A stretch of DNA of 30,240 bases from a virus, in IMG/VR virus record IMGVR_UViG_3300050821_005939, positions 1-30,240 of that record, one strand, 5' to 3'. Shown here in pieces: positions 20,554 through 30,240 of the stretch. Made by a program: the position numbers and the translations under genes. Numbering within the stretch: the first letter of the stretch is position 1; every line of letters starts with the position of its first letter. The notes under the pieces were generated by a model. The model searched no databases. It saw nothing but the letters and a program-made list of their open reading frames with translations, and was not told the DNA's origin.

Positions 20554-20775
20554 ATGTTTTCTTTTCTTAGAAAAACTTTCAATATACTGAAAGTCGGCTT
20601 TGTGTCTCGCATCTATATGAATGCAATTGCGTGCATGTGCTTAGGACTATCGATAGGCACACCAAGTACAATTTTTAAATTTGTTTTTGTAGTTGCTGGT
20701 GCTTTGATTCTTGCTGAAACATGGTTTCAATTCGGCTTTAGGCGAGCCACTGTTATTAACGCACTCAAAAAATAA
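20554..20775 (+). CDS. Small membrane protein ending in the INAL motif
   Basis: A 73-residue protein; ATG 20554 with AAGGA 6 bases before (a TTG at 20548 is also in frame and overlaps the previous stop). Hydrophobic segments: 'NAIACMCLGLSIGTPST' and 'FKFVFVVAGALILAETWF'. The C-terminus reads 'RRATVINALKK', and the same INAL ending occurs in the membrane proteins at 27768 and 28525. This suggests a family spread over two clusters. Membrane location likely; role unknown. Confidence 0.7.
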   Translation: MFSFLRKTFNILKVGFVSRIYMNAIACMCLGLSIGTPSTIFKFVFVVAGALILAETWFQFGFRRATVINALKK

Positions 20776-21228: not shown

Positions 21229-22452
21229 ATGTCTTTCGCTCGCAATATTACTCTTGATATAGTTAAGAAAGCTATTCAAGGAAAAGATGAATTCCGTATC
21301 TTCGAACGGGATGGTTTCGTCGTGGTCGATTATTTGATTACGAAAGCAGATACCTTTATGCATGAAGATCCAGAACTTCAAAAAGTCTTGCGTGAATTGC
21401 GAGGAATTGCATTTTCTGCTGATGGATCGCATGTTATTTCTCGGCCATATGATAAGTTTTTCAATATTGGAGAAAAAGAAGAAACTCTCCTTTCGAATCT
21501 CGACTTTACGCAACATCATGTTGTTTTGAATAAGCTTGATGGATCAATGATTCGCACGATTCCTGTTTATGATGGAAAATCGTTTCGATTGGGAACGCGT
21601 GCTGGATTGACTTCTGTTTCTATGCAGGCAGAAAAGTTTTGGGTTCGGCCAGAAAATTATTCTCGTTATCAAGCACTGTTCAAGTGGTGTGAAGAAATGG
21701 ATGCCACTCCGATTTTTGAATATGTCGGACCTTCGAATCGTATTGTTTTGCATTACGAACAAGAAGATTTGATTTTAACTGCTGTACGTAATCGTATGAC
21801 AGGAGAATATGTTGATTATCAAAATCTAAAAGATTTTGGTCAATATCATGATGAAATCAATGTGGTTCAAGTATTATTTGATTCGTCAGAAAATTTGACT
21901 GATCGTATCGCTAAACTTGAAGGGCTTGAGGGAGCAGTTGTTCGCTTCGAAAATGGCTTACAAGTAAAGTGTAAGGCTGATGATTACGTTGATAAGCATC
22001 GCGCTGTTTCACAATTGAAACTTGAAAAGGATGTGTTGAAACTTATTTTCACAAATGCATTGGATGATGTATTGCCAATATTGAATGAAGATGTGCGTAA
22101 GCAAGTTGAGCAATATCGTTCTAAGGTTGTTGAAAAAGCGGCAGAGTTTGAAGTTCGCTTGTATGAAAAATACAAGGTTATCTGCGATACTATCGACAAG
22201 GAGTTGATGCAAAATTATAATGGTGATGAAAGCGAAAATGATCGTGAGGTGCGTAAACAATTCGCATTAGTAATTCAAGGAAATGAGCGCTATCAACGCG
22301 ATTCAAAATTTTTGTTCAATTTGCTCAAGAATGGTGAAGTGGATGTCCCAGAATTCATCGTATCAAAATGTGGAACTCAAGCAACAGTCGAATCAATCCG
22401 TCATATAATCGGAACTCAGAAGTTGTGGGAAATTTCGAATGACGCTGACTGA
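21229..22452 (+). CDS. rnlA: RNA ligase 1 family (T4 RnlA-like)
   Basis: A 407-residue ATP-dependent RNA ligase; T4 Rnl1 is 374 residues and repairs tRNA cut by host anticodon nucleases. Motif I is K102-L-D-G-S in 'VVLNKLDGSMIRTI', with the AMP-lysine K102. Before it is 'RPYDKFFNIGE', typical of Rnl1. Motif III is 'TPIFEYVGPSNRIVL', motif IV 'EGLEGAVVRFENG', motif V 'LQVKCKADDYV'. The C-terminal 150 residues are helical, as in the Rnl1 domain that binds tRNA. The ribosome binding site is AGAGGT. A host defence by tRNA cleavage is implied, but only by family knowledge. It overlaps the next gene by 14 bases. Confidence 0.9.
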   Translation: MSFARNITLDIVKKAIQGKDEFRIFERDGFVVVDYLITKADTFMHEDPELQKVLRELRGIAFSADGSHVISRPYDKFFNIGEKEETLLSNLDFTQHHVVLNKLDGSMIRTIPVYDGKSFRLGTRAGLTSVSMQAEKFWVRPENYSRYQALFKWCEEMDATPIFEYVGPSNRIVLHYEQEDLILTAVRNRMTGEYVDYQNLKDFGQYHDEINVVQVLFDSSENLTDRIAKLEGLEGAVVRFENGLQVKCKADDYVDKHRAVSQLKLEKDVLKLIFTNALDDVLPILNEDVRKQVEQYRSKVVEKAAEFEVRLYEKYKVICDTIDKELMQNYNGDESENDREVRKQFALVIQGNERYQRDSKFLFNLLKNGEVDVPEFIVSKCGTQATVESIRHIIGTQKLWEISNDAD

Positions 22453-22780
22453 TTGGCTAAAGAAAACGTGGATGAAGTATAGTCCACGTTTTCTTTGTAA
22501 AGAACTAAGACGACAAGAAGAAATTCGTATTGCTGAACTAGCAACAATAGACGAGTATGTTAAAAAACATGAAATGTTCTTCACGTTGAAAGGACTAACA
22601 ATTAGCACGTTTGAGTACAATCCTAAATATCGAGGTACCAAACCTTCAAGGTGGGTGGGTTATGTAGAAGATAATAACGGGCAAATGCTGACTAGTTATT
22701 GTTTGGCAAAAACTGTAATAGAAGCAAAACAAGAAGCAATTTACAAGTATTATAGACAATATGGACCACAAAAAAATTAA
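22439..22780 (+). CDS. Paralog-array member 1 with N-terminal extension
   Basis: A 113-residue protein. Residues 40-113 follow the array pattern: 'FFTLKGLTISTFEYNPKY', a 'W-x-GYVEDNNGQ' strand, then 'VIEAKQEAIYKYYRQYG' as the C-terminal helix. The first 35 residues are extra and basic ('WMKYSPRFLCKELRRQEEIR'). The bases 22459-22496 here form a 14 bp perfect hairpin, so a later start such as the ATG at 22472 (in its loop) is possible. It overlaps rnlA by 14 bases and the next array gene by 20. Function unknown. Confidence 0.6.
   Translation: MTLTDWLKKTWMKYSPRFLCKELRRQEEIRIAELATIDEYVKKHEMFFTLKGLTISTFEYNPKYRGTKPSRWVGYVEDNNGQMLTSYCLAKTVIEAKQEAIYKYYRQYGPQKN
22459..22496. repeat. 14 bp perfect hairpin at the start of gene 22439
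   Basis: AAAGAAAACGTGGA, loop of 10 bases, TCCACGTTTTCTTT. The stem is A-rich on one side and T-rich on the other, like a terminator stem, and it lies just after the rnlA stop. It may limit transcription or translation into the next gene. Confidence 0.8.
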
Positions 22781-23042
22781 ACTCCTTGTTGCGCTACATG
22801 GTTGGAGAGTTCGCTGTAGGGCAACATATCAAGCTAATCTTGAATATCAACACGGAACTATAGGTAATGAGCCATTCATTGATGTGCAATACGCTTGGTT
22901 AGAAAACAGCGAAGGGAAACACTATTATAGCAAGAATTTTTCAGAACAATATCCACTTTGCTTCGGAAAAACTAGAACACAAGCAATAAACAATCTACTC
23001 GATTATTGGTATGAAGTTAACAAACACACTCTGGAGAAATAA
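22761..23042 (+). CDS. Paralog-array member 2
   Basis: A 93-residue protein: 'MDHKKIKLLVALHGWRVRC' at the start, which fits the M-(D/E)-x-x-K-x-K-L-x-x-A-L-x-G pattern, then strands ('FIDVQYAWLENSEGKHYY') and a C-terminal helix after G-K-T ('RTQAINNLLDYWYEVNK'). It starts inside member 1 with a 20-base overlap; the 404-residue gene follows with a one-base overlap. The layout recalls small proteins with a 'G-x-T-x-x-E-A' helix, such as HicB-like folds. No activity is known. Confidence 0.65.
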   Translation: MDHKKIKLLVALHGWRVRCRATYQANLEYQHGTIGNEPFIDVQYAWLENSEGKHYYSKNFSEQYPLCFGKTRTQAINNLLDYWYEVNKHTLEK

Positions 23043-24256
23043 TGTCAGATAAAATCATTACGTTTGCAAAATCACTTACTGTTGGTGTTAGAGGATATAA
23101 AGATTTGAGCATCGAAGATCCTCAATTGTCTTTCATGACCCCAAATACAATCGATTCAGCTTATCAGAAACGTTTAATAACGTTAAAGAGTTGGTGTAAT
23201 GCCGGTAGGACATACAATTATACAACTAAGCAATATGAAGGCACTCAAGACACGAATAATTTGCATGAACTAGATAATAGTCCGACGACTGGTTTTAGAA
23301 TTATGAATGCAACCAGTCGTTATTCTACTGATAACAAATTCTTTAGATTGATTGACCCTAGAGGTTATGTTCTCGAAATCTCAACTGGCAATCTTGAAGT
23401 TATTCTACAAACGAGCGATATCCTTAAAGGTGGCTATATCGCTGAGCCATGTGTTTGGGGTCGTCAAGGAAATAATAACGTATTGGTAGCAGTTTCTTCA
23501 GAAGCATATGCAAAATCTATTAAGTTTGCAGAAAAGAATACTTCAAAATTTAGTGATTTGACTGTTGGCGATATTGTTAAGTTTAAAGACGGATCAGAAG
23601 ATATCTATCTTGGAGAATATGTTGCAATTATTTCTCAACGAAAAGATTTAAATCCCACACGAGGAAATACTTTTTATTCTGGTTTTGGCGGAACACGTAA
23701 TCCGACCAAATATGAACATGCATTGAGTAAGACTGAAAAATATCACGCGTTTAAATCTAGCAAAAGTACTAGTTTTCAACTTGCTAAAAAACTAAAACCA
23801 TGTGTCATTATCGGAAAGACAGAAGAAAAAATCGAAGATTATTACAAGAATGGTCAATCGATTTATATTCGTATGCCGTCAAATGATTATTCGAAATCAG
23901 TTCATGGTATTTTTAAATCGAGTATTGGTATTCAAGATTTCCAATATGTAATGGATTTGACTGAAAAAGAAATCGATTTAAACGATAGCAATGCAAGAAA
24001 TTCAACTCAATATATTGTGCATAATGAAACAATGCAAATTGTTGAAACTTATATTAGCAGAATTCATGCAGATTTAATTAACGATGGATATAATGAAATC
24101 ATTTATAATCCATTTACGCCAACTCAATATAATACCGTCGAATGTAATCTTTCTAGAAAAGAGCCGTTAGAAGTTAAAAAATGCACGTTTGTTACTGGAT
24201 TAAAGATTGTAGCAAATACCGATTTAGGTAAAATTACATTGAAAGAATCTGTGTAA
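23042..24256 (+). CDS. Conserved phage protein of 404 residues, function unknown
   Basis: It starts 'MSDKIITFAKSLTVGVRGYK' and has 'FFRLIDPRGYVLEISTGNLE', 'ILKGGYIAEPCVWGRQGNNN', then 'LVAVSSEAY'. Proteins with this 'DPRG ... LEIS ... CVWGR ... LV-V-SE-Y' signature occur in several phages as unassigned proteins; I know no function. A second half (about 170-260) has 'LTVGDIVKFKDGSEDIYLGE', SH3-like in look. It is soluble, with no signal peptide, and overlaps the paralog gene before it by one base. A terminator and a new promoter follow. Codon use and base content resemble its neighbours. Confidence 0.6.
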   Translation: MSDKIITFAKSLTVGVRGYKDLSIEDPQLSFMTPNTIDSAYQKRLITLKSWCNAGRTYNYTTKQYEGTQDTNNLHELDNSPTTGFRIMNATSRYSTDNKFFRLIDPRGYVLEISTGNLEVILQTSDILKGGYIAEPCVWGRQGNNNVLVAVSSEAYAKSIKFAEKNTSKFSDLTVGDIVKFKDGSEDIYLGEYVAIISQRKDLNPTRGNTFYSGFGGTRNPTKYEHALSKTEKYHAFKSSKSTSFQLAKKLKPCVIIGKTEEKIEDYYKNGQSIYIRMPSNDYSKSVHGIFKSSIGIQDFQYVMDLTEKEIDLNDSNARNSTQYIVHNETMQIVETYISRIHADLINDGYNEIIYNPFTPTQYNTVECNLSRKEPLEVKKCTFVTGLKIVANTDLGKITLKESV

Positions 24257-24286
24257 GGATTGTAATGTTGTAAAAATACAACAATT

Positions 24287-24318
24287 GGGAGATTTTGGGT
24301 GACCAAATCTCCCTTTTT
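24287..24318 (+). terminator. Terminator after the 404-residue gene
   Basis: GGGAGATTTTGG, loop GTGA, CCAAATCTCCC, then TTTTT; a bulged T breaks the 11 bp stem. A smaller 7 bp hairpin TGTTGTA/TACAACA lies just upstream (24266-24283). Confidence 0.85.
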
Positions 24319-24327
24319 GTGTATAAT
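24299..24327 (+). promoter_or_regulatory. Sigma70 promoter overlapping the terminator
   Basis: GTGACC (24299-24304), 17 bases, TATAAT (24322-24327). The -35 lies in the terminator loop and the start of the 3' arm. A perfect -10. Drives 24355. Confidence 0.65.
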
Positions 24328-24350
24328 AGACTTATTCGATAAGGAGATTG
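24321..24350 (+). repeat. Promoter-leader cassette, copy 1
   Basis: The 30-base string from G24321 to G24350 (TATAAT, ACTTATTCGATA, GGAGATTG) recurs at 24942-24970 with one substitution and one missing base. It carries the -10, the 5' leader and the ribosome binding site. Confidence 0.85.
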
Positions 24351-24354
24351 ACAA

Positions 24355-24678
24355 ATGCAAAACATTGACTATATGCAAGTGGTTCCGATGGTTCGTGATA
24401 ATGCTGATTTTGATCAAGCTGCGAGGGATGCAGGTTGGGAAGGAGCTGCTGATTTGCTTGATACAGAATTCAATCTTGATGAACACGATTTTCTTGAAAG
24501 CGCGTTTTTTATGCTCGATTGTTACTATCCTGTCGGCGATGCACTGAGAATCGGTGATATCACTGTAATGAACACGATGGGTAGTGAAAATGAGCGTAAT
24601 CGCTGGTATCCTTGTGATTATGTTGTTTATACTGACAATACTGGTGCTCTTTTTATTGAAAGCGACGGTAGCTTTTAA
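24355..24678 (+). CDS. Small acidic protein, function unknown
   Basis: A 107-residue acidic protein ('MQNIDYMQVVPMVRDNADFD', 'WEGAADLLDTEFNLDEHDFL', 'YPVGDALRIGDITVM'). The first half is helical, the second strand-rich and ends 'DNTGALFIESDGSF'. The ribosome binding site AAGGAG (24341-24346) lies in the repeated leader. It is directly followed (0 bases) by the next array paralog. The acidity is consistent with a DNA mimic or an inhibitor of a host nucleic-acid enzyme, but no evidence chooses between them. Confidence 0.6.
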   Translation: MQNIDYMQVVPMVRDNADFDQAARDAGWEGAADLLDTEFNLDEHDFLESAFFMLDCYYPVGDALRIGDITVMNTMGSENERNRWYPCDYVVYTDNTGALFIESDGSF

Positions 24679-24924
24679 ATGACAAAATCAGATTACAATA
24701 AAATTGAATTAGAATTAATTTTAAAAGGCTATGCGCTTGATTCATTTCATGCTCCAATTGGATACGGTTGCTACTTGATTATTAATAATCAAACTAAAGT
24801 AAAAAATAAGTACGATCAAGAGCAATTATGTACAGCAGTTTTTAAAGAAAAAACAGCGAGAAAACGAATGCTTAAGTGGTATTTGAAAAATCGTGCTGTT
24901 GTTTCTACACAACAATCCCATTGA
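24679..24924 (+). CDS. Paralog-array member 3
   Basis: An 81-residue protein. 'MTKSDYNKIELELILKGYAL' starts in the array pattern (K-x-E-L-x-L-x-L-K-G). The middle has 'GYGCYLIINNQTKVK', and the end has a basic helix ('TARKRMLKWYLKNRAVV'), with W-Y and K-N-R in the place of the usual W-x-x-R-N. It follows the acidic gene without a gap. The stop TGA overlaps the -35 of the next promoter. Function unknown. Confidence 0.6.
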   Translation: MTKSDYNKIELELILKGYALDSFHAPIGYGCYLIINNQTKVKNKYDQEQLCTAVFKEKTARKRMLKWYLKNRAVVSTQQSH

Positions 24925-24948
24925 CTTATTTGTCCAAAAGAGTATAAT
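24921..24948 (+). promoter_or_regulatory. Sigma70 promoter
   Basis: TTGACT (24921-24926), 16 bases, TATAAT (24943-24948). The -35 overlaps the stop codon of the gene before. It starts the transcript of the main array. Confidence 0.8.
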
Positions 24949-24970
24949 ATACTTATTCGATAGGAGATTG
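24942..24970 (+). repeat. Promoter-leader cassette, copy 2
   Basis: Second copy of the 24321 cassette. It is identical apart from G to T at one place and one missing A. Confidence 0.85.
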
Positions 24971-24972
24971 CA

Positions 24973-25140
24973 ATGGTAGTTTCTGATGATGTTCTCAAGG
25001 ATAATGGTTTGACTAAGATCGAGCGAATCGAAGGTACTGGATTTGTTATCGATACTGAAGGTGTATCGCATGTATTCATTACAGATGAATTACTTGCAAT
25101 TCTAACGCAATTTGCAGTTAGTGAAAATCACTCTAACTAA
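24973..25140 (+). CDS. Small protein, function unknown
   Basis: A 55-residue protein; ATG 24973 follows GGAGATTG at the end of the leader cassette. It reads 'MVVSDDVLKDNGLTKIERIE', then 'GTGFVIDTEGVSHVFITDEL'. Acidic, probably strand-rich. It is the first gene after the promoter at 24921, and the next gene follows after 16 bases. No motif recognised. Confidence 0.65.
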   Translation: MVVSDDVLKDNGLTKIERIEGTGFVIDTEGVSHVFITDELLAILTQFAVSENHSN

Positions 25141-25156
25141 ATCTGAGGATTACAAA

Positions 25157-25615
25157 ATGCTAACGAAAGCTGATATTGTGAAGTTGCTCGAAACTAACGA
25201 CAAAGCTATTGCTCGTGCGCTTGTCGTCCTAAACAATAATCAAACTGTCGCTGAACAGCGATCAGAAGCCACGATCAATCGCAATGGCGAAGGTTTTCGT
25301 CCTTGTCATGCTCGTATGGGCACTTCGATGGCAGAATTTTATCAAAAGCGTGGCTTTCTTTCTCCTAAACAAATTGCATATTGGCGTGTAAAAGACAAGA
25401 ATGGTGATATGCGCCTTGCAATTTATTGGCGGCAACTTGCCGAAGCTGCTGAAGCAAAGAAAGCTACACAAGTAGCTAAGCCTGCTGAACCTGTCTCTGA
25501 AGTGCATGATGATATCCGTATGAAAAATTTTGCTGCTGAACAAGAACGCCTTGACGAACAAAAGGCAGAATTTTTTAAGAATATTGCTAAGAACCGTCTT
25601 GAAGGCCGTGTATGA
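25157..25615 (+). CDS. Conserved phage/plasmid-type protein, function unknown
   Basis: A 152-residue protein. The start is ATG 25157 with TGAGGAT upstream; an in-frame Met at 25112 lies in the previous gene. 'KAIARALVVLNNNQTVAEQR', 'NGEGFRPCHARMGTSMAEFY', 'RGFLSPKQIAYWRVKDKNGD' and 'YWRQLAEAAEA' match a small family in phages and plasmids with 'Q-T-x-x-E-Q ... N-G-x-G-F ... L-(S/T)-x-K-Q', unassigned. The last 45 residues are a charged coiled stretch. Its stop overlaps the ATG of the next gene (ATGA). Confidence 0.65.
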   Translation: MLTKADIVKLLETNDKAIARALVVLNNNQTVAEQRSEATINRNGEGFRPCHARMGTSMAEFYQKRGFLSPKQIAYWRVKDKNGDMRLAIYWRQLAEAAEAKKATQVAKPAEPVSEVHDDIRMKNFAAEQERLDEQKAEFFKNIAKNRLEGRV

Positions 25616-25836
25616 TTGATCTTGAAAAAGCGAAAGTTGAGCTTGCTTTGCATGGATTGACGTTTTTGCTCACGACTTGGAAGTTTGCTTTTGATGATTA
25701 CGATTCAGATTCGTATAGTGTAATAATCATTCCGATCGACTCAAGAGAAGGTGATACAAAATATTATGCAATCAATACGAATCTAATGAAAGCTTATGAA
25801 GAATCATTCACATTGTGGAAAAATCGTGGACGTTGA
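25612..25836 (+). CDS. Paralog-array member 4
   Basis: A 74-residue acidic protein: 'MIDLEKAKVELALHGLTFLL' is the array start, then 'DDYDSDSYSVIIIPIDSREG' (a Y-x-V-I-I-P strand with many Asp), and a C-terminal helix 'LMKAYEESFTLWKNRGR' with the W-x-x-R-(N/G) ending. It opens with ATGA overlap on the previous gene. The last 11 bases are also the start of the next array gene in another frame. Function unknown. Confidence 0.7.
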   Translation: MIDLEKAKVELALHGLTFLLTTWKFAFDDYDSDSYSVIIIPIDSREGDTKYYAINTNLMKAYEESFTLWKNRGR

Positions 25837-26026
25837 AAAGAAATTGCTTGTGCTTTCATTGAAAGGATGGTCTTTAGTGAAGTCTAGAAGCGGAGATAGG
25901 TATTGGTTTGAGTGTGACAAGTTTGTGATAAACGAGACTGATGACCTAAAGCTTTTTCAAGCAACATTGTCAGATGCGAAAGAACAATCGATAGAACGTT
26001 TAGAGATATACATTGATGGAAATTGA
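25826..26026 (+). CDS. Paralog-array member 5, GTG start
   Basis: A 66-residue protein. I choose GTG 25826, which reads V/M-D-V-E-K-K-L-L-V-L-S-L-K-G, exactly the array start, over a longer in-frame ATG at 25796 that has no array-like sequence. It overlaps the gene before by 11 bases. Then 'SGDRYWFECDKFVIN' and a helix 'TLSDAKEQSIERLEIYIDGN'. It lacks the W-x-x-R-N end. Confidence 0.6.
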   Translation: MDVEKKLLVLSLKGWSLVKSRSGDRYWFECDKFVINETDDLKLFQATLSDAKEQSIERLEIYIDGN

Positions 26027-26255
26027 TAAAGAAAAATTTAAATTAGTGTTGGCATTGTCTGGTTACATCTTAATAGAAGAACCAAGCTGCTGTTGTGATG
26101 GGGCATATTGCGGTATAATGTATGCTTACGATAACGATGATAGTAATGCTCGATATAATCGAGTAGTTGTAGGAGAACTATACGTCTTTTCTGATAATGA
26201 AGAATCTGCATTTCAAGAGGTATACGAAAAATGGACTTTGAGAAATTCAAATTAG
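26016..26255 (+). CDS. Paralog-array member 6
   Basis: A 79-residue protein from ATG 26016: M-E-I-D-K-E-K-F-K-L-V-L-A-L-S-G-Y. The middle is 'CCCDGAYCGIMYAYDNDDSN', with four Cys within 8 residues and an Asp-rich run; then 'GELYVFSDNEESAFQEVYEK' and W-T-L-R-N-S-N. The four Cys could bind a metal, and no other member has them. Overlaps by 11 bases before and 25 bases after. Confidence 0.7.
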   Translation: MEIDKEKFKLVLALSGYILIEEPSCCCDGAYCGIMYAYDNDDSNARYNRVVVGELYVFSDNEESAFQEVYEKWTLRNSN

Positions 26256-26506
26256 AATTAATCCTTAAAGGCTTTAAGTTAGACCATCAAGCTTATGATT
26301 CTGGAAGTTCTACTAAACAATTTTACGCTAGAATTGTGCCAATGGATCTTGTGTATTATGACGCCGATGAAGAAATTGCTGATAGAAATAAACGGTTAGG
26401 TCTTTTAAGTGAAACAGGACACTGGATTTATTTTTCTTGGGGTCAAACCGAACAAGAAGCAATTAACAATGTATATTTGACATGGACTATGAAAAAGAAA
26501 TCTTAA
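26231..26506 (+). CDS. Paralog-array member 7
   Basis: A 91-residue protein, the longest of the consecutive run: M-D-F-E-K-F-K-L-E-L-I-L-K-G-F-K-L. Then 'QFYARIVPMDLVYYDADEEI', a Y-A-R-I strand and an acidic stretch, 'GHWIYFSWGQTEQEAINNVY' and W-T-M-K-K-K-S. The G-Q-T-E-Q-E-A stretch fits the helix start of HicB-like and related small folds. Its first 25 bases also code for the end of member 6. No activity is known. Confidence 0.7.
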   Translation: MDFEKFKLELILKGFKLDHQAYDSGSSTKQFYARIVPMDLVYYDADEEIADRNKRLGLLSETGHWIYFSWGQTEQEAINNVYLTWTMKKKS

Positions 26507-26721
26507 AGCTTAACTTGATGGGTTTCGAAATTAAGACTATCCGCGCCGGTGTTACAGGACACTGTTATTCTTTAGTGGTAGATATGGATGAGACATGGAA
26601 TATGGATCCTGAATTTAGAGCGACGCCATTTCAATCAAAAGAAGAATCAATCAAAAATGCTGTAGATAATTTCCTTCGTTTTTACAAACCAATGAAAAAA
26701 TATGGATATCTTGAAAATTAA
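26482..26721 (+). CDS. Paralog-array member 8
   Basis: A 79-residue protein: M-D-Y-E-K-E-I-L-K-L-N-L-M-G-F-E-I. Then 'GHCYSLVVDMDETWNMDPEF', and a helix 'EESIKNAVDNFLRFYKPMKK' that departs from the W-x-x-R-N end. Overlap of 25 bases with member 7 and 20 bases with member 9. Diverged; still plainly the same layout. Function unknown. Confidence 0.65.
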   Translation: MDYEKEILKLNLMGFEIKTIRAGVTGHCYSLVVDMDETWNMDPEFRATPFQSKEESIKNAVDNFLRFYKPMKKYGYLEN

Positions 26722-26950
26722 GTTAGCATTGTCTCTGCATGGTCTTCAGATTCATTCTGATGAATCTATAGCTGAGGATTATTATGCTAGAATCGAACCG
26801 ATCGGGTATCATATTGGAATGAAACTCCCAGACTACTTATTGACTGACGCTGGAAATAGATACAAGTATTTTGATTATGGCAACACTAAAGAAGAAGCAT
26901 CATATAAGGTATATCAACAATGGATATCGAGAAATTCAACTTCATCTTAG
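26702..26950 (+). CDS. Paralog-array member 9
   Basis: An 82-residue protein: M-D-I-L-K-I-K-L-A-L-S-L-H-G-L-Q-I. Then 'AEDYYARIEPIGYHIGMKLP' (Y-A-R-I-E-P strand), 'AGNRYKYFDYGNTKEEASYK' and V-Y-Q-Q-W-I-S-R-N-S. It is very close to members 7 and 10 in the strand and helix parts. Overlap of 31 bases with member 10, the largest in the array. Confidence 0.7.
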   Translation: MDILKIKLALSLHGLQIHSDESIAEDYYARIEPIGYHIGMKLPDYLLTDAGNRYKYFDYGNTKEEASYKVYQQWISRNSTSS

Positions 26951-27141
26951 CATTAACGAAACCTAATTATAAATTAGACGTGTTTGTATCATATAATGGT
27001 CCTTGTGCTAGAATTAGGTTCTACGGAATCGGAACCCCAGACGAATTAACTGATGGCTGCCGATTCAGATATTTTTCTTACGGTGACACATTAGAAGATG
27101 CAGCTAACAAAGTGATTGAACAATGGAATTCGAGAAAATAA
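26920..27141 (+). CDS. Paralog-array member 10
   Basis: A 73-residue protein: M-D-I-E-K-F-N-F-I-L-A-L. The usual 'K-G' after it is replaced by 'TKPNYKL'. Then 'NGPCARIRFYGIGTPDEL' (A-R-I strand), 'CRFRYFSYGDTLEDAANKVI' and E-Q-W-N-S-R-K. The Y-G-D-T-x-x-x-A-A helix start is like members 7 and 9. Its start overlaps the end of member 9, and its end the start of member 11. Confidence 0.7.
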   Translation: MDIEKFNFILALTKPNYKLDVFVSYNGPCARIRFYGIGTPDELTDGCRFRYFSYGDTLEDAANKVIEQWNSRK

Positions 27142-27365
27142 AATTAGCGTTAGCGCTCAAAGATTTTGATATAGTTATTTTAGGTAATAATGGGTCTGAT
27201 AGATATTTAGGATATCTTGTGCATGCTGATACTTCGGATGGGCATGGATATAGAGAAAATGTCTTAGACAAAGACGGTAAAAAGATTGTTAGAATCGCTG
27301 GTACAATGGACGAAGTTGCTGATAAACTATACAAATGGGTGGTAGCAAATGTCTCTAAGAAATAG
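27123..27365 (+). CDS. Paralog-array member 11
   Basis: An 80-residue protein: M-E-F-E-K-I-K-L-A-L-A-L-K-D-F-D. Then 'GSDRYLGYLVHADTSDGHGY', 'GKKIVRIAGTMDEVADKLYK' and W-V-V-A-N-V-S-K-K. The G-T-x-D-E-V-A helix matches the array. It ends the array and overlaps the next gene (27349) by 17 bases. Confidence 0.7.
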   Translation: MEFEKIKLALALKDFDIVILGNNGSDRYLGYLVHADTSDGHGYRENVLDKDGKKIVRIAGTMDEVADKLYKWVVANVSKK

Positions 27366-27771
27366 GAATAATAGGCAGATTAAAAAGCTTGCTAAGAAGA
27401 AAGTGTTTTATTATAAAAGTGATAAAATTTTTAGGGTTGTCCCTGCTCATACATTGGATGTCCACTGGTGGGATGCATTTGAAGGAGACAATGTAAAACA
27501 GTTTATGTCGTTAGATAATGCTGAAACAGCATTGAATAAGCTACCAGTAGGTAGTTACATTATATTTTATGAATACGATAAAGAAAATAAAGACGACATG
27601 TGGCAATATTTTATGAAAAGCCGTTGTTCGAATTGTGACAGGAAATGCGGTGATCGAAAATTTAAAATGAAGAGGAAATTCGGAAAAAATTTCACTATCA
27701 AGTTTAAACAACCGACACAATGTGAATTGAAAAATAAATTTAAGGGAATTACTCATTGGGGGAAAGTATGA
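27349..27771 (+). CDS. Small basic protein with cysteine cluster, function unknown
   Basis: A 140-residue protein, very basic. The start 'MSLRNRNNRQIKKLAKKKVF' is lysine- and arginine-rich, then 'VVPAHTLDVHWWDAFEGDNV' and a strand. The second half has 'MKSRCSNCDRKCGDRKFKMK' (C-x-x-C-x-x-x-C), then a further Cys (QCELK) about 35 residues on, which may make a zinc site. It could bind nucleic acid. It overlaps the array end by 17 bases and the next gene by 4. No known family. Confidence 0.6.
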   Translation: MSLRNRNNRQIKKLAKKKVFYYKSDKIFRVVPAHTLDVHWWDAFEGDNVKQFMSLDNAETALNKLPVGSYIIFYEYDKENKDDMWQYFMKSRCSNCDRKCGDRKFKMKRKFGKNFTIKFKQPTQCELKNKFKGITHWGKV

Positions 27772-28076
27772 GTATCAGAGTCTTGAAAGAACATAAACAA
27801 GGGGAAGTTTGGACTTGGGGAGAAGTAGTGATTTATACTTTTCTTTTAGTATTCACGATGGGATTTGCATTTGAAGAATATAGACGCGAAATGGCTAGAG
27901 AATTTTCATGGAGTTTCATGGGCGGATTCTGGATATTTGTTTTAGTAAATTTGTTATTCTTTATTCCGATGCTTGTGTGCTGCCCTATTACAGTCCCGGC
28001 ATATATTGCATATCTGCATTGGAGACAAGAAACTGATGCAAAAAAACTAGTTATTAACGCATTGAGAGAAAAATGA
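27768..28076 (+). CDS. Membrane protein with INAL C-terminus, member A
   Basis: A 102-residue protein from ATG 27768, preceded by GGGGGAAAG; an in-frame ATG at 27756 has no site. Hydrophobic segments 'VVIYTFLLVFTMGFAF', 'FWIFVLVNLLFFIPMLVC' and 'PITVPAYIAYLHW'. The end is 'KKLVINALREK', as in 20554 and 28525. It overlaps the gene before by 4 bases. Inner membrane protein; function unknown. Confidence 0.68.
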   Translation: MSIRVLKEHKQGEVWTWGEVVIYTFLLVFTMGFAFEEYRREMAREFSWSFMGGFWIFVLVNLLFFIPMLVCCPITVPAYIAYLHWRQETDAKKLVINALREK

Positions 28077-28525
28077 TCGAAAAAACTAATGTTGATTATA
28101 CATTTGAAATGGTATTCATGCTTTTCTATCTGGACTTCTGGGAAGAAATTGTGCATAGAACTACATCTGATCTTGGTGAAAGATTGTTTATGTTATTTTT
28201 TGCTGTAGTGGCAGTAGCATTGTTTCCTATTTCTCTGCCGATTATTTTTATGATACTTAATTTGAAAGATATTGTTGATGAGCGAGAAATTAATATTTAC
28301 GGTCTCTCTAAAAAAGAAATTCTAAAAGAACAAGCTAAGGTTTGGTTCTTGCATAAATTTTATGAATATTGGCTAGCAAATGTTTTAGATAACATTAGGT
28401 GGACAATCACGGTCGGAATGTTGTATATTTCTGCGCCAATTATGTTTCCTGTGATTTATATTTTCTTTATTTCGACACAAAAACATTTCGCAAAGAAAGA
28501 AATTATCAAAGCATTGAGGGCGTAA
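28073..28525 (+). CDS. Membrane protein, member B of the same family
   Basis: A 150-residue protein. 'ERLFMLFFAVVAVALFPISL' and 'PIIFMILNL' give one membrane pass, and 'ITVGMLYISAPIMFPVIYIF' a second. The C-terminus is 'KKEIIKALRA', a relative of the INAL ending. The 'PI-x-FPVIY' stretch is like 'TPILFPIVFLV' of the next protein. ATGA overlap before and one-base overlap after. Function unknown. Confidence 0.68.
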   Translation: MIEKTNVDYTFEMVFMLFYLDFWEEIVHRTTSDLGERLFMLFFAVVAVALFPISLPIIFMILNLKDIVDEREINIYGLSKKEILKEQAKVWFLHKFYEYWLANVLDNIRWTITVGMLYISAPIMFPVIYIFFISTQKHFAKKEIIKALRA

Positions 28526-28803
28526 TGAAAACAAATTGGTATGGACTCACGACATTGCAGCATCTGTCTAAGATGGCACAACTTTGGTTTTTCACACCAT
28601 TTACGAAATATTTTTGGAACGCATTGTTTGAAGATCAACCAGGATTGGGATATATCGGTTTTGGTGTGTTTTTTATGTTTGTGGGGTTTACGATACTTTG
28701 GATAAGCACCCCGATTTTGTTTCCGATCGTATTTTTAGTATCAAGACTCTATTGTTACAAAAAATCACGAAAAATGGTAATAAATGCCTTGCGTTCGAAG
28801 TAA
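28525..28803 (+). CDS. Membrane protein, member C of the same family
   Basis: A 92-residue protein from ATG 28525, chosen because it overlaps the previous stop by one base (TAATG); the longer in-frame ATG at 28399 lies deep in the previous gene. 'GLGYIGFGVFFMFVGFTILW' and 'STPILFPIVFLVSRLYCY' are membrane segments. The end 'RKMVINALRSK' matches A. It ends the small-gene run. Function unknown. Confidence 0.68.
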   Translation: MKTNWYGLTTLQHLSKMAQLWFFTPFTKYFWNALFEDQPGLGYIGFGVFFMFVGFTILWISTPILFPIVFLVSRLYCYKKSRKMVINALRSK

Positions 28804-28875: not shown

Positions 28876-29289
28876 ATGTCTCAAAATTCAAAAAACGAAC
28901 GTGTGCTAGCAGGCGAATTGCAGTATCACAAATTTATCAATACTTATTCTGGTGGAGAGTTACTGAAGAAGCATTCTCTTGACGAAGAAGGACTTTGGCA
29001 AATTAAGGGAGAAGACCCAAACTGTGATTGGGGAGGTTCTCATCATCAACCTAACTTAGGTATTGTCGATGGTAAATTGGTCGATGTCATTAAGTATGCG
29101 GTTGAATTGTCAGGATTCTGGTCTTGGGGTGCTGGTGGCAACATTGTTAAAATTGATAATATCAAAAAAGTAGATAGTCAATCAGCGCGGCGCAGGAAAG
29201 ACCTTGAAGTGCAAAAATTTGCACTTCAAAAGCAACTCGATGCTATTGACGAGGAACTTAACGATTTTGGTGGTGACGCATATGTCTAA
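28876..29289 (+). CDS. Conserved phage protein, function unknown
   Basis: A 137-residue protein. 'YHKFINTYSGGELLKKHSL', 'WQIKGEDPNCDWGGSHHQPN', 'LGIVDGKLVDVIKYAVELSG' and 'WSWGAGGNIVKI' are a layout known from phage and enterobacterial unassigned proteins ('GEDPNCD-GG-HH-P-LG'). The invariant-looking Cys and two His could hold a metal. The C-terminus is a charged helix ('LEVQKFALQKQLDAIDEELN'). The stop overlaps the start of the next gene by 8 bases (ATGTCTAA), so it is made together with the NAD enzyme. Function unknown. Confidence 0.65.
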   Translation: MSQNSKNERVLAGELQYHKFINTYSGGELLKKHSLDEEGLWQIKGEDPNCDWGGSHHQPNLGIVDGKLVDVIKYAVELSGFWSWGAGGNIVKIDNIKKVDSQSARRRKDLEVQKFALQKQLDAIDEELNDFGGDAYV

Positions 29290-30240
29290 GAAATATAAAT
29301 TAGCTGCTGTTATTGGTCGCTTCGAGCCAATGCATAATCAACACATTAAGCTATTTGAAAAAGCAGTAAGTATTGCTGACTATTCATTGGTATTGTTGGG
29401 AGGAGATCATCGACCGCGCACGATTAAGAATCCACTAACAGTAGTAGAACGGCAAACAATTCTATGTGATTGGGCATATGACAATGATATTGGAGAAGGT
29501 TTTGGGTCGATGGGCGTAAATGACTATGTTTATAGTGATTCGGCTTGGGTAACAGAGGTTCAACAAAAGGTTACAGATACATTTAAAAGTCTGTATGGTC
29601 GCACCCCGAAGAAAGGTGAGATTTGTCTAGTGGGTTGTGAAAAAGATTCATCTTCATATTATTTGAAAATGTTCCCTCAATGGGATTTGATTGCACTCCC
29701 ATTGGGTGATACACTTGATTCAACCCAAATTCGACAATTGCTGTTTGAAGGTAAATCACTGAGTTATGTTGCTGGTGCAGTTCCTGAGCAAACATTGAAA
29801 TTTTTGTCTGAGTTTAGAAATACTTCAAATTTTGAACAACTTGTTAGAGAATATGAATTTATTCAGAAGTATAAACTTGCCTGGGCGTCAGCGCCATATG
29901 ATCCAGTATTTGTTACAACTGATGCTTGGGTAGTTCAAAGTGGTCATGTCTTGCTTATTCAACGAAAGAAAGAACCTGGGCATGGACTTTGGGCAGCAGC
30001 TGGCGGATTTTTGGGTATGAAAGAAACATTGATTCAATCCATGCTTCGTGAATTGCGCGAAGAAACGAAGATTAAAGTTCCTGCAGCAGTACTTGAAGGT
30101 AGTATCATTGATTCACACGTATTCGATTCACCAACTCGTAGCATGCGTGGCAGAACTATCACTCACAGTTATCTTATCAAGCTGAAAGATGATAAAGAAC
30201 TTGCTCATGTTAAAGCAGCAGATGATGCAATGGCGGTAGA
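29282..30240 (+). CDS. Bifunctional NMN adenylyltransferase/Nudix hydrolase (3' partial)
   Basis: 319 codons are visible before the edge. The N-terminal nucleotidyltransferase domain has G12-R-F-E-P-M-H18-N-Q-H21, the family's H-x-x-H (here GRFEPMHNQH), and S147-T-Q-I-R151, the second substrate motif. This makes NAD+ from NMN and ATP. From about 205 a Nudix domain begins; its box is G242-x5-E248-x7-R256-E257-x2-E260-E261, with K263 in place of the usual Gly. The domain normally splits ADP-ribose. Phage KVP40 has such a bifunctional enzyme, next to an NMN-making gene (NadV), as do many T4-like phages. The gene may supply NAD for the ART-like proteins and for ligases, or counter defence by NAD depletion. 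The start is ATG 29282 inside the previous gene's end. Confidence 0.9.
   Translation, partial: MSKKYKLAAVIGRFEPMHNQHIKLFEKAVSIADYSLVLLGGDHRPRTIKNPLTVVERQTILCDWAYDNDIGEGFGSMGVNDYVYSDSAWVTEVQQKVTDTFKSLYGRTPKKGEICLVGCEKDSSSYYLKMFPQWDLIALPLGDTLDSTQIRQLLFEGKSLSYVAGAVPEQTLKFLSEFRNTSNFEQLVREYEFIQKYKLAWASAPYDPVFVTTDAWVVQSGHVLLIQRKKEPGHGLWAAAGGFLGMKETLIQSMLRELREETKIKVPAAVLEGSIIDSHVFDSPTRSMRGRTITHSYLIKLKDDKELAHVKAADDAMAV

Follow-up and report, generated by a model that had tools for sequence, protein, structure and literature searches.

Overlapping small genes of one paralogous family, with start codons embedded in the preceding copy, in a probable jumbo phage fragment

Tandem amplification of small accessory genes has been described in T4-like phages, in which recombination amplifies counter-defence genes via homologies of 2–10 bp (PMC9391042) and a homing endonuclease promotes the segmental amplification of counter-defence genes (PMC13096335). 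The array of eleven small genes described here resembles those loci (tifA; the SegB-driven loci) in its tandem copies of small accessory genes, which are consistent with short-homology recombination (PMC9391042, PMC13096335). The T4-like copies, however, formed recently in the laboratory, whereas the copies in the array are old, have mostly diverged to 20–40% identity, and are under purifying selection. By sequence comparison, the array represents an orphan family restricted to one lineage, and its arrangement is of a known kind.

The DNA analyzed, hereafter the window, is the 30,240-base virus record IMGVR_UViG_3300050821_005939, which derives from an uncultured bacterial virus. The terminase shows 55% identity to that of Pseudomonas phage PA5oct (287 kb) and 50% identity to that of Sinorhizobium phage Phosso (469 kb). 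For the UvsX-like recombinase, at least 600 relatives occur in IMG/VR, and the top 80 of these are 74–97% identical to it. Because of these relationships, the window is most likely part of the genome of a large myophage (jumbo phage) that is distantly akin to PA5oct and Phosso. The same region is present in a closely related contig, IMGVR_UViG_3300050821_007648 (loci L002 and L003), which is called the relative below. Otherwise dissimilar proteins encoded at positions 247, 846, 8551, 8913, 9492, 17625, and 18347 of the window open with M(R/K)(A/I)xE(F/I/L), which may represent a common leader or targeting sequence.

All eleven ORFs named in an initial annotation, made from the sequence of the window, are present at the positions given there; they are lettered A to K in positional order, all on the plus strand, and an additional paralog in the relative is designated X. 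The shared N-terminal motif, M-(D/E)-x-E-K and following residues, opens ten of the eleven ORFs as had been claimed, the exception being A (22439..22780; 113 amino acids), a marginal member in which the motif is internal (approximately residues 37–52) and is preceded by an N-terminal extension of approximately 36 residues. The ortholog of A in the relative (L003:7566-7904) is 55% identical, and that of B (22761..23042; 93 amino acids), whose start codon lies within the last helix of A, is 90% identical. The following gene (23042-24256) encodes a 404-amino-acid protein that is 97% conserved in the relative and has distant partial-length matches (26–35% identity) in 247 phage records. C (24679..24924; 81 amino acids) is isolated and is absent from the relative, and D (25612..25836; 74 amino acids) opens an uninterrupted block of eight genes, D to K (25612-27365), which are consecutive, as had been noted, and each overlap the next by 11–31 nucleotides: E (25826..26026; 66 amino acids), which starts with GTG, F (26016..26255; 79 amino acids), G (26231..26506; 91 amino acids), H (26482..26721; 79 amino acids), I (26702..26950; 82 amino acids), J (26920..27141; 73 amino acids), and K (27123..27365; 80 amino acids). 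K, the last member, overlaps an unrelated gene for a 140-amino-acid protein by 17 nucleotides.

Homology among these proteins was recovered by leave-one-out profiles for all eleven members, each of which scored above 200 shuffles of itself (12.5–41 bits, compared with 5.5–9.3 bits for the best shuffle), although the signal is unevenly distributed along the length. A gave the weakest score of the eleven (12.5 bits versus 8.7 for its best shuffle); K scored 15.6 bits, C 16.4 bits, E 17.0 bits (carried by the N-terminus), and D 22.1 bits. When the first 20 residues were removed, F, G, I, and J were still recognized (the tails of F and G scored 18 and 23 bits, respectively, with 0/500 shuffles reaching either score), B, C, and A were marginal, and D, E, H, and K did not exceed shuffles. 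Two sub-groups can be distinguished: a main group ending in W, which includes F, G, I, and J, all four homologous over their full length (J is 39% identical to I; BLASTP E 4e-9 at a small database size), and sub-group 2, which comprises E, H, and the E2 and X proteins of the relative, with E and H ending in S-I-x(n)-Y; in E, H, and X only the first ~20 residues are in common with the family. In profile-profile comparison with hhalign, B joined the core family across 71 columns (P 8e-6), sub-group 2 across 20 columns (P 5e-5), and C across 19 columns (E 1.2e-4); the alignment of A to the family was not significant, and the negative controls, four further small proteins encoded in the region, failed to join. 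The final-helix motif G-x-T-x-E-(E/D)-A...W, which the initial annotation had attributed to the whole set, is evident in F, G, I, and J, is supported in A (reached by 1/1000 shuffles), B (7/1000), and, via its ortholog, K (0/1000), is weak in C and D (36–42/1000), and was undetected in E and H. Because the tails and the hhalign spans are limited in this way, the sequence evidence for several members consists of the first 20 residues; the eleven ORFs nonetheless form a real family by sequence criteria, with uneven support across members. In a control scan, five small-ORF paralog pairs were counted in the window, whereas none of 79 loci and two stretches of genome from related phages had more than two, indicating that the array is unusual within its phage group.

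At all eight paralog–paralog junctions (A/B and the seven junctions from D to K), the downstream start, (A/G)TGGA, lies within the sequence encoding the last helix of the upstream protein. This start box is read in the upstream frame as a conserved Trp codon at F/G, where the ATGGA of G sits in the Trp codon of F, and likewise at G/H, I/J, and J/K; at A/B, D/E, E/F, and H/I, it is read as an x-Gly pair. The embedded-start junctions are repeated in the relative, including that of X. At the Trp-type junctions, one stretch of DNA thus encodes in two frames the tail of the upstream protein (e.g., W-T-L-R-N or W-N-S-R-K) and the M-(D/E)-x-E-K of the downstream protein. The Trp residue is also retained in B, C, D, and K despite the absence of such an overlap, which indicates that it is constrained as protein and that the start box was built on it. 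Neighboring start boxes have exact runs of approximately 9 nucleotides in common, for example ATGGATATC at I and J, a length that falls within the 2–10 bp range reported for T4 (PMC9391042). The embedded starts suggest in-frame duplication of a cassette, and both duplication and exchange would proceed through the start boxes. It is conceivable, if doubtful, that the conserved Trp codon of each copy also supplies the start box for its downstream neighbor, forming a self-propagating overlapping cassette; unequal recombination would then insert or exchange units that stay in frame and translationally coupled, generating modular binders against different host targets. The T4-type late promoter TATAAATA was not enriched in the window, and sigma-70-like sites were no more frequent there than in shuffles.

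Comparison with the relative revealed near one-to-one orthology, with a gain of X (L002:5316-5540), the absence of C, and a diverged protein in slot E (39% identity). An unrelated gene for a 101-amino-acid protein lies within the paralog block of the relative, a gene for an HNH-like endonuclease (L002:3030-3836; assigned from a motif seen by eye, with no Pfam match above the cut-off) replaces C together with a 107-amino-acid and a 55-amino-acid gene, and an FAD-dependent oxidoreductase gene of the DAO family (L003:7867-9240), absent from the window, is inserted between A and B. The dN/dS values of the ortholog pairs range from 0.1 to 0.5, the ortholog of D being 96% identical with a dN/dS of 0.10, indicating that the genes are translated and constrained. 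The orthologs are under purifying selection, and positive selection was rejected for these pairs. The dS between the window and the relative is approximately 0.2–0.3 for D, H, I, and J and exceeds 1 for E, F, G, and K, and these several-fold jumps between neighboring genes indicate mosaic exchange. Four change-points in divergence were identified within the array, 15–32 nucleotides from gene starts (permutation p ~0.03, a modest value). Similar jumps occur elsewhere in the region, even inside the RNA ligase gene, so the mosaicism is not specific to the array; this T4 RnlA-like RNA ligase (21229-22452) is sharply mosaic relative to its counterpart, with blocks of 58–96% identity within the gene. 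Low dN/dS together with near one-to-one orthology argues against an active arms race since the two phages split. Of the two processes invoked in the initial annotation, repeated duplication is therefore well founded in profile homology, a common predicted fold of the main group, and starts embedded at corresponding positions of the upstream paralog; rapid change is upheld only in part, as regards the old divergence of the paralogs, mosaic replacement, and gene gain and loss, but no sign of positive selection accompanies it.

The same comparison bears on the possibility that the paralogs are subunits of one hetero-oligomer, each copy in a fixed position and kept equimolar by the overlaps, so that the locus would encode a machine rather than an arsenal. 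Eight overlapping genes, each under purifying selection and with their order kept in both phages, would fit such a complex, as would the predicted two-layer fold, which would leave one face of the sheet free to pair. The copy number, however, varies through the gain of X, the absence of C, and the replacement in slot E, and a complex of fixed stoichiometry would not easily tolerate the unrelated genes that break the block in the relative; we consider this explanation unlikely.

An alpha-beta-beta-beta-alpha fold is predicted at high confidence for the main-group representative I, which was modeled by AlphaFold2 with 20 family members (mean pLDDT 89.8; H3-11, E15-21, E27-33, E57-60, and H63-81 by DSSP). 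A fold search with this model gave no significant match. The top PDB matches were TTHA0281 (2dsy; E 0.23), which we take to be HicB-like, double-stranded RNA-binding domains (dsRBDs; E 0.75 and up), and T7 Gp1.2, an inhibitor of the Escherichia coli dGTPase (7u65_G; E 0.75), and the best viral match was an uncharacterized 78-amino-acid protein of Escherichia phage tuntematon (E 0.09, probability 0.94). The sole match of the sequence profile against the PDB, a lipocalin, was taken as chance. These matches, and a last helix with the lead G-x-T-x-E-E-A that is reminiscent of HicB, could be read as signs that the products are HicB-like or other antitoxin-like decoys neutralizing host toxins, or else nucleic-acid binders of the dsRBD type. 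TTHA0281 was the best PDB match over the whole domain and has a similar last helix with a G-x-T-x-x-E-A-like lead, which agrees with the HicB resemblance sensed in the initial annotation; the match is not significant, however (probability 0.69, TM about 0.45, 14% identity), dsRBDs and T7 Gp1.2 follow closely, and the resemblance amounts to a weak lead. Chain 4p78_C of the HicA3–HicB3 complex matched the model of I at E 6.3, the array members differ from HicB proteins in having no HTH or RHH domain, the HicB profiles of Pfam and NCBIfam matched none of 20 members at E up to 1, and no HicA toxin gene was found by Pfam among the neighboring genes scanned (the small ORFs being covered in part). 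dsRBDs, several of which are among the top ten matches, and HicA, which has the dsRBD fold, share the order of secondary structure elements of the model of I. In dsRBDs, the last helix is led by a basic K-K-x-A-K, whereas in the array proteins this position is an acidic T-x-E-E; D to K are acidic or neutral (pI 4.3–6.7), and no Pfam dsRBD profile matched the family. Canonical dsRNA binding is disfavored by this charge. T7 Gp1.2, among the top three PDB matches, is likewise a small phage protein of similar length; its fold alignment with I gave a probability of 0.30 and 13% identity. Among the members, J alone weakly matched the profile of the Lar restriction alleviation protein (PF14354), over its last 22 positions around A-x(7)-W-N-x-R (E 0.12; 13.1 bits against a cut-off of 28.6), and the zinc-ribbon cysteine pattern was absent. 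Matches to Pfam, PHROGs, NCBIfam, and PADLOC were all sub-threshold, none being significant or at the curated cut-off. With neither the fold matches nor the profiles reaching significance, an antitoxin-like or nucleic-acid-binding role is improbable.

It is equally improbable that the set shares no more than a short N-terminal start cassette, carried by recombination to small ORFs with no other kinship. Since D, E, H, and K have tails that went unrecognized by sequence, part of the set could share only the N-terminal segment, and sub-group 2 and C align over 19–20 columns only, but the C-terminal motif also occurs in F, G, I, and J and, less strongly, in A, B, and the K ortholog, the conserved L8, L10, L12, and G14 lie mostly outside the overlaps, and H, modeled by AlphaFold2 from five sub-group 2 sequences with no main-group sequence, repeats the order of elements seen in I, albeit at low confidence and with the third strand unformed (pLDDT 60; H3-12, E15-22, E26-33, and H53-73).

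The family was found in two contigs in total, the window and the relative. A tblastn search of 50,697 phage records with A, G, and I yielded nothing credible, and a profile search of 37 related virus records and the PA5oct and Phosso genomes was empty, with the relative detected as a positive control. A pattern scan of bacterial genomes revealed no homologs, and degenerate DNA patterns for M-D-x-E-K and following residues retrieved 11 and 9 stretches from IMG/VR, the one genuine match being the known relative; very distant relatives would escape such scans, whose matches are confirmed by tblastn.

No sequence-profile or fold search tied the array significantly to a family whose function is known. 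An NMN adenylyltransferase-Nudix-like gene (29204..30238, plus strand) runs past the end of the window, and in the relative an NMNAT-Nudix fusion is followed by NAMPT (L002:8494-11087), such that the NMNAT-Nudix and NAMPT genes lie 2–4 kb downstream of the array. NAD+ reconstitution counters NAD+-depleting defences (PMC12774641), and in other large phages, homologs under the name NARP2 are classed as counter-defence (PMC12028318); from their family names, NAMPT and NMNAT may form an NAD+ salvage pathway of the counter-defence kind here. Small, apparently membrane proteins (20554-20775, 27768-28076, 28073-28525, and 28525-28803) flank the array on both sides and end in a common tail resembling (V/I)I(N/K)AL(R/K)xK, possibly constituting a second paralog family.

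The explanation we favor is that an overlapping gene cassette has duplicated in tandem, with each start codon lying among the codons for the last helix of the copy before it. Translation would be coupled along a single polycistronic message, and short stretches of identical DNA at the start boxes would allow recombination to insert, delete, or exchange units without loss of frame. The products may be binders for host takeover or counter-defence, the variable loops of each copy being fitted to a different host protein; this assignment is prompted by genes that are accessory, lineage-restricted, duplicated, prone to turnover, and located beside the NMNAT-Nudix and NAMPT genes. The evolutionary and structural part of this explanation is very probable, the host-directed part falls slightly short of an even chance, and the explanation as a whole, a duplicated overlapping cassette family directed at the host, is evenly balanced. 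The array looks like a repeatedly duplicated, slowly specializing tool kit for dealings with the host. If its products are host-directed, a single locus would provide about ten related specialized inhibitors, a natural collection with which to look for new defence systems or host targets. The embedded-start layout offers a concrete, testable way for overlapping phage genes to be duplicated with both reading frames intact.
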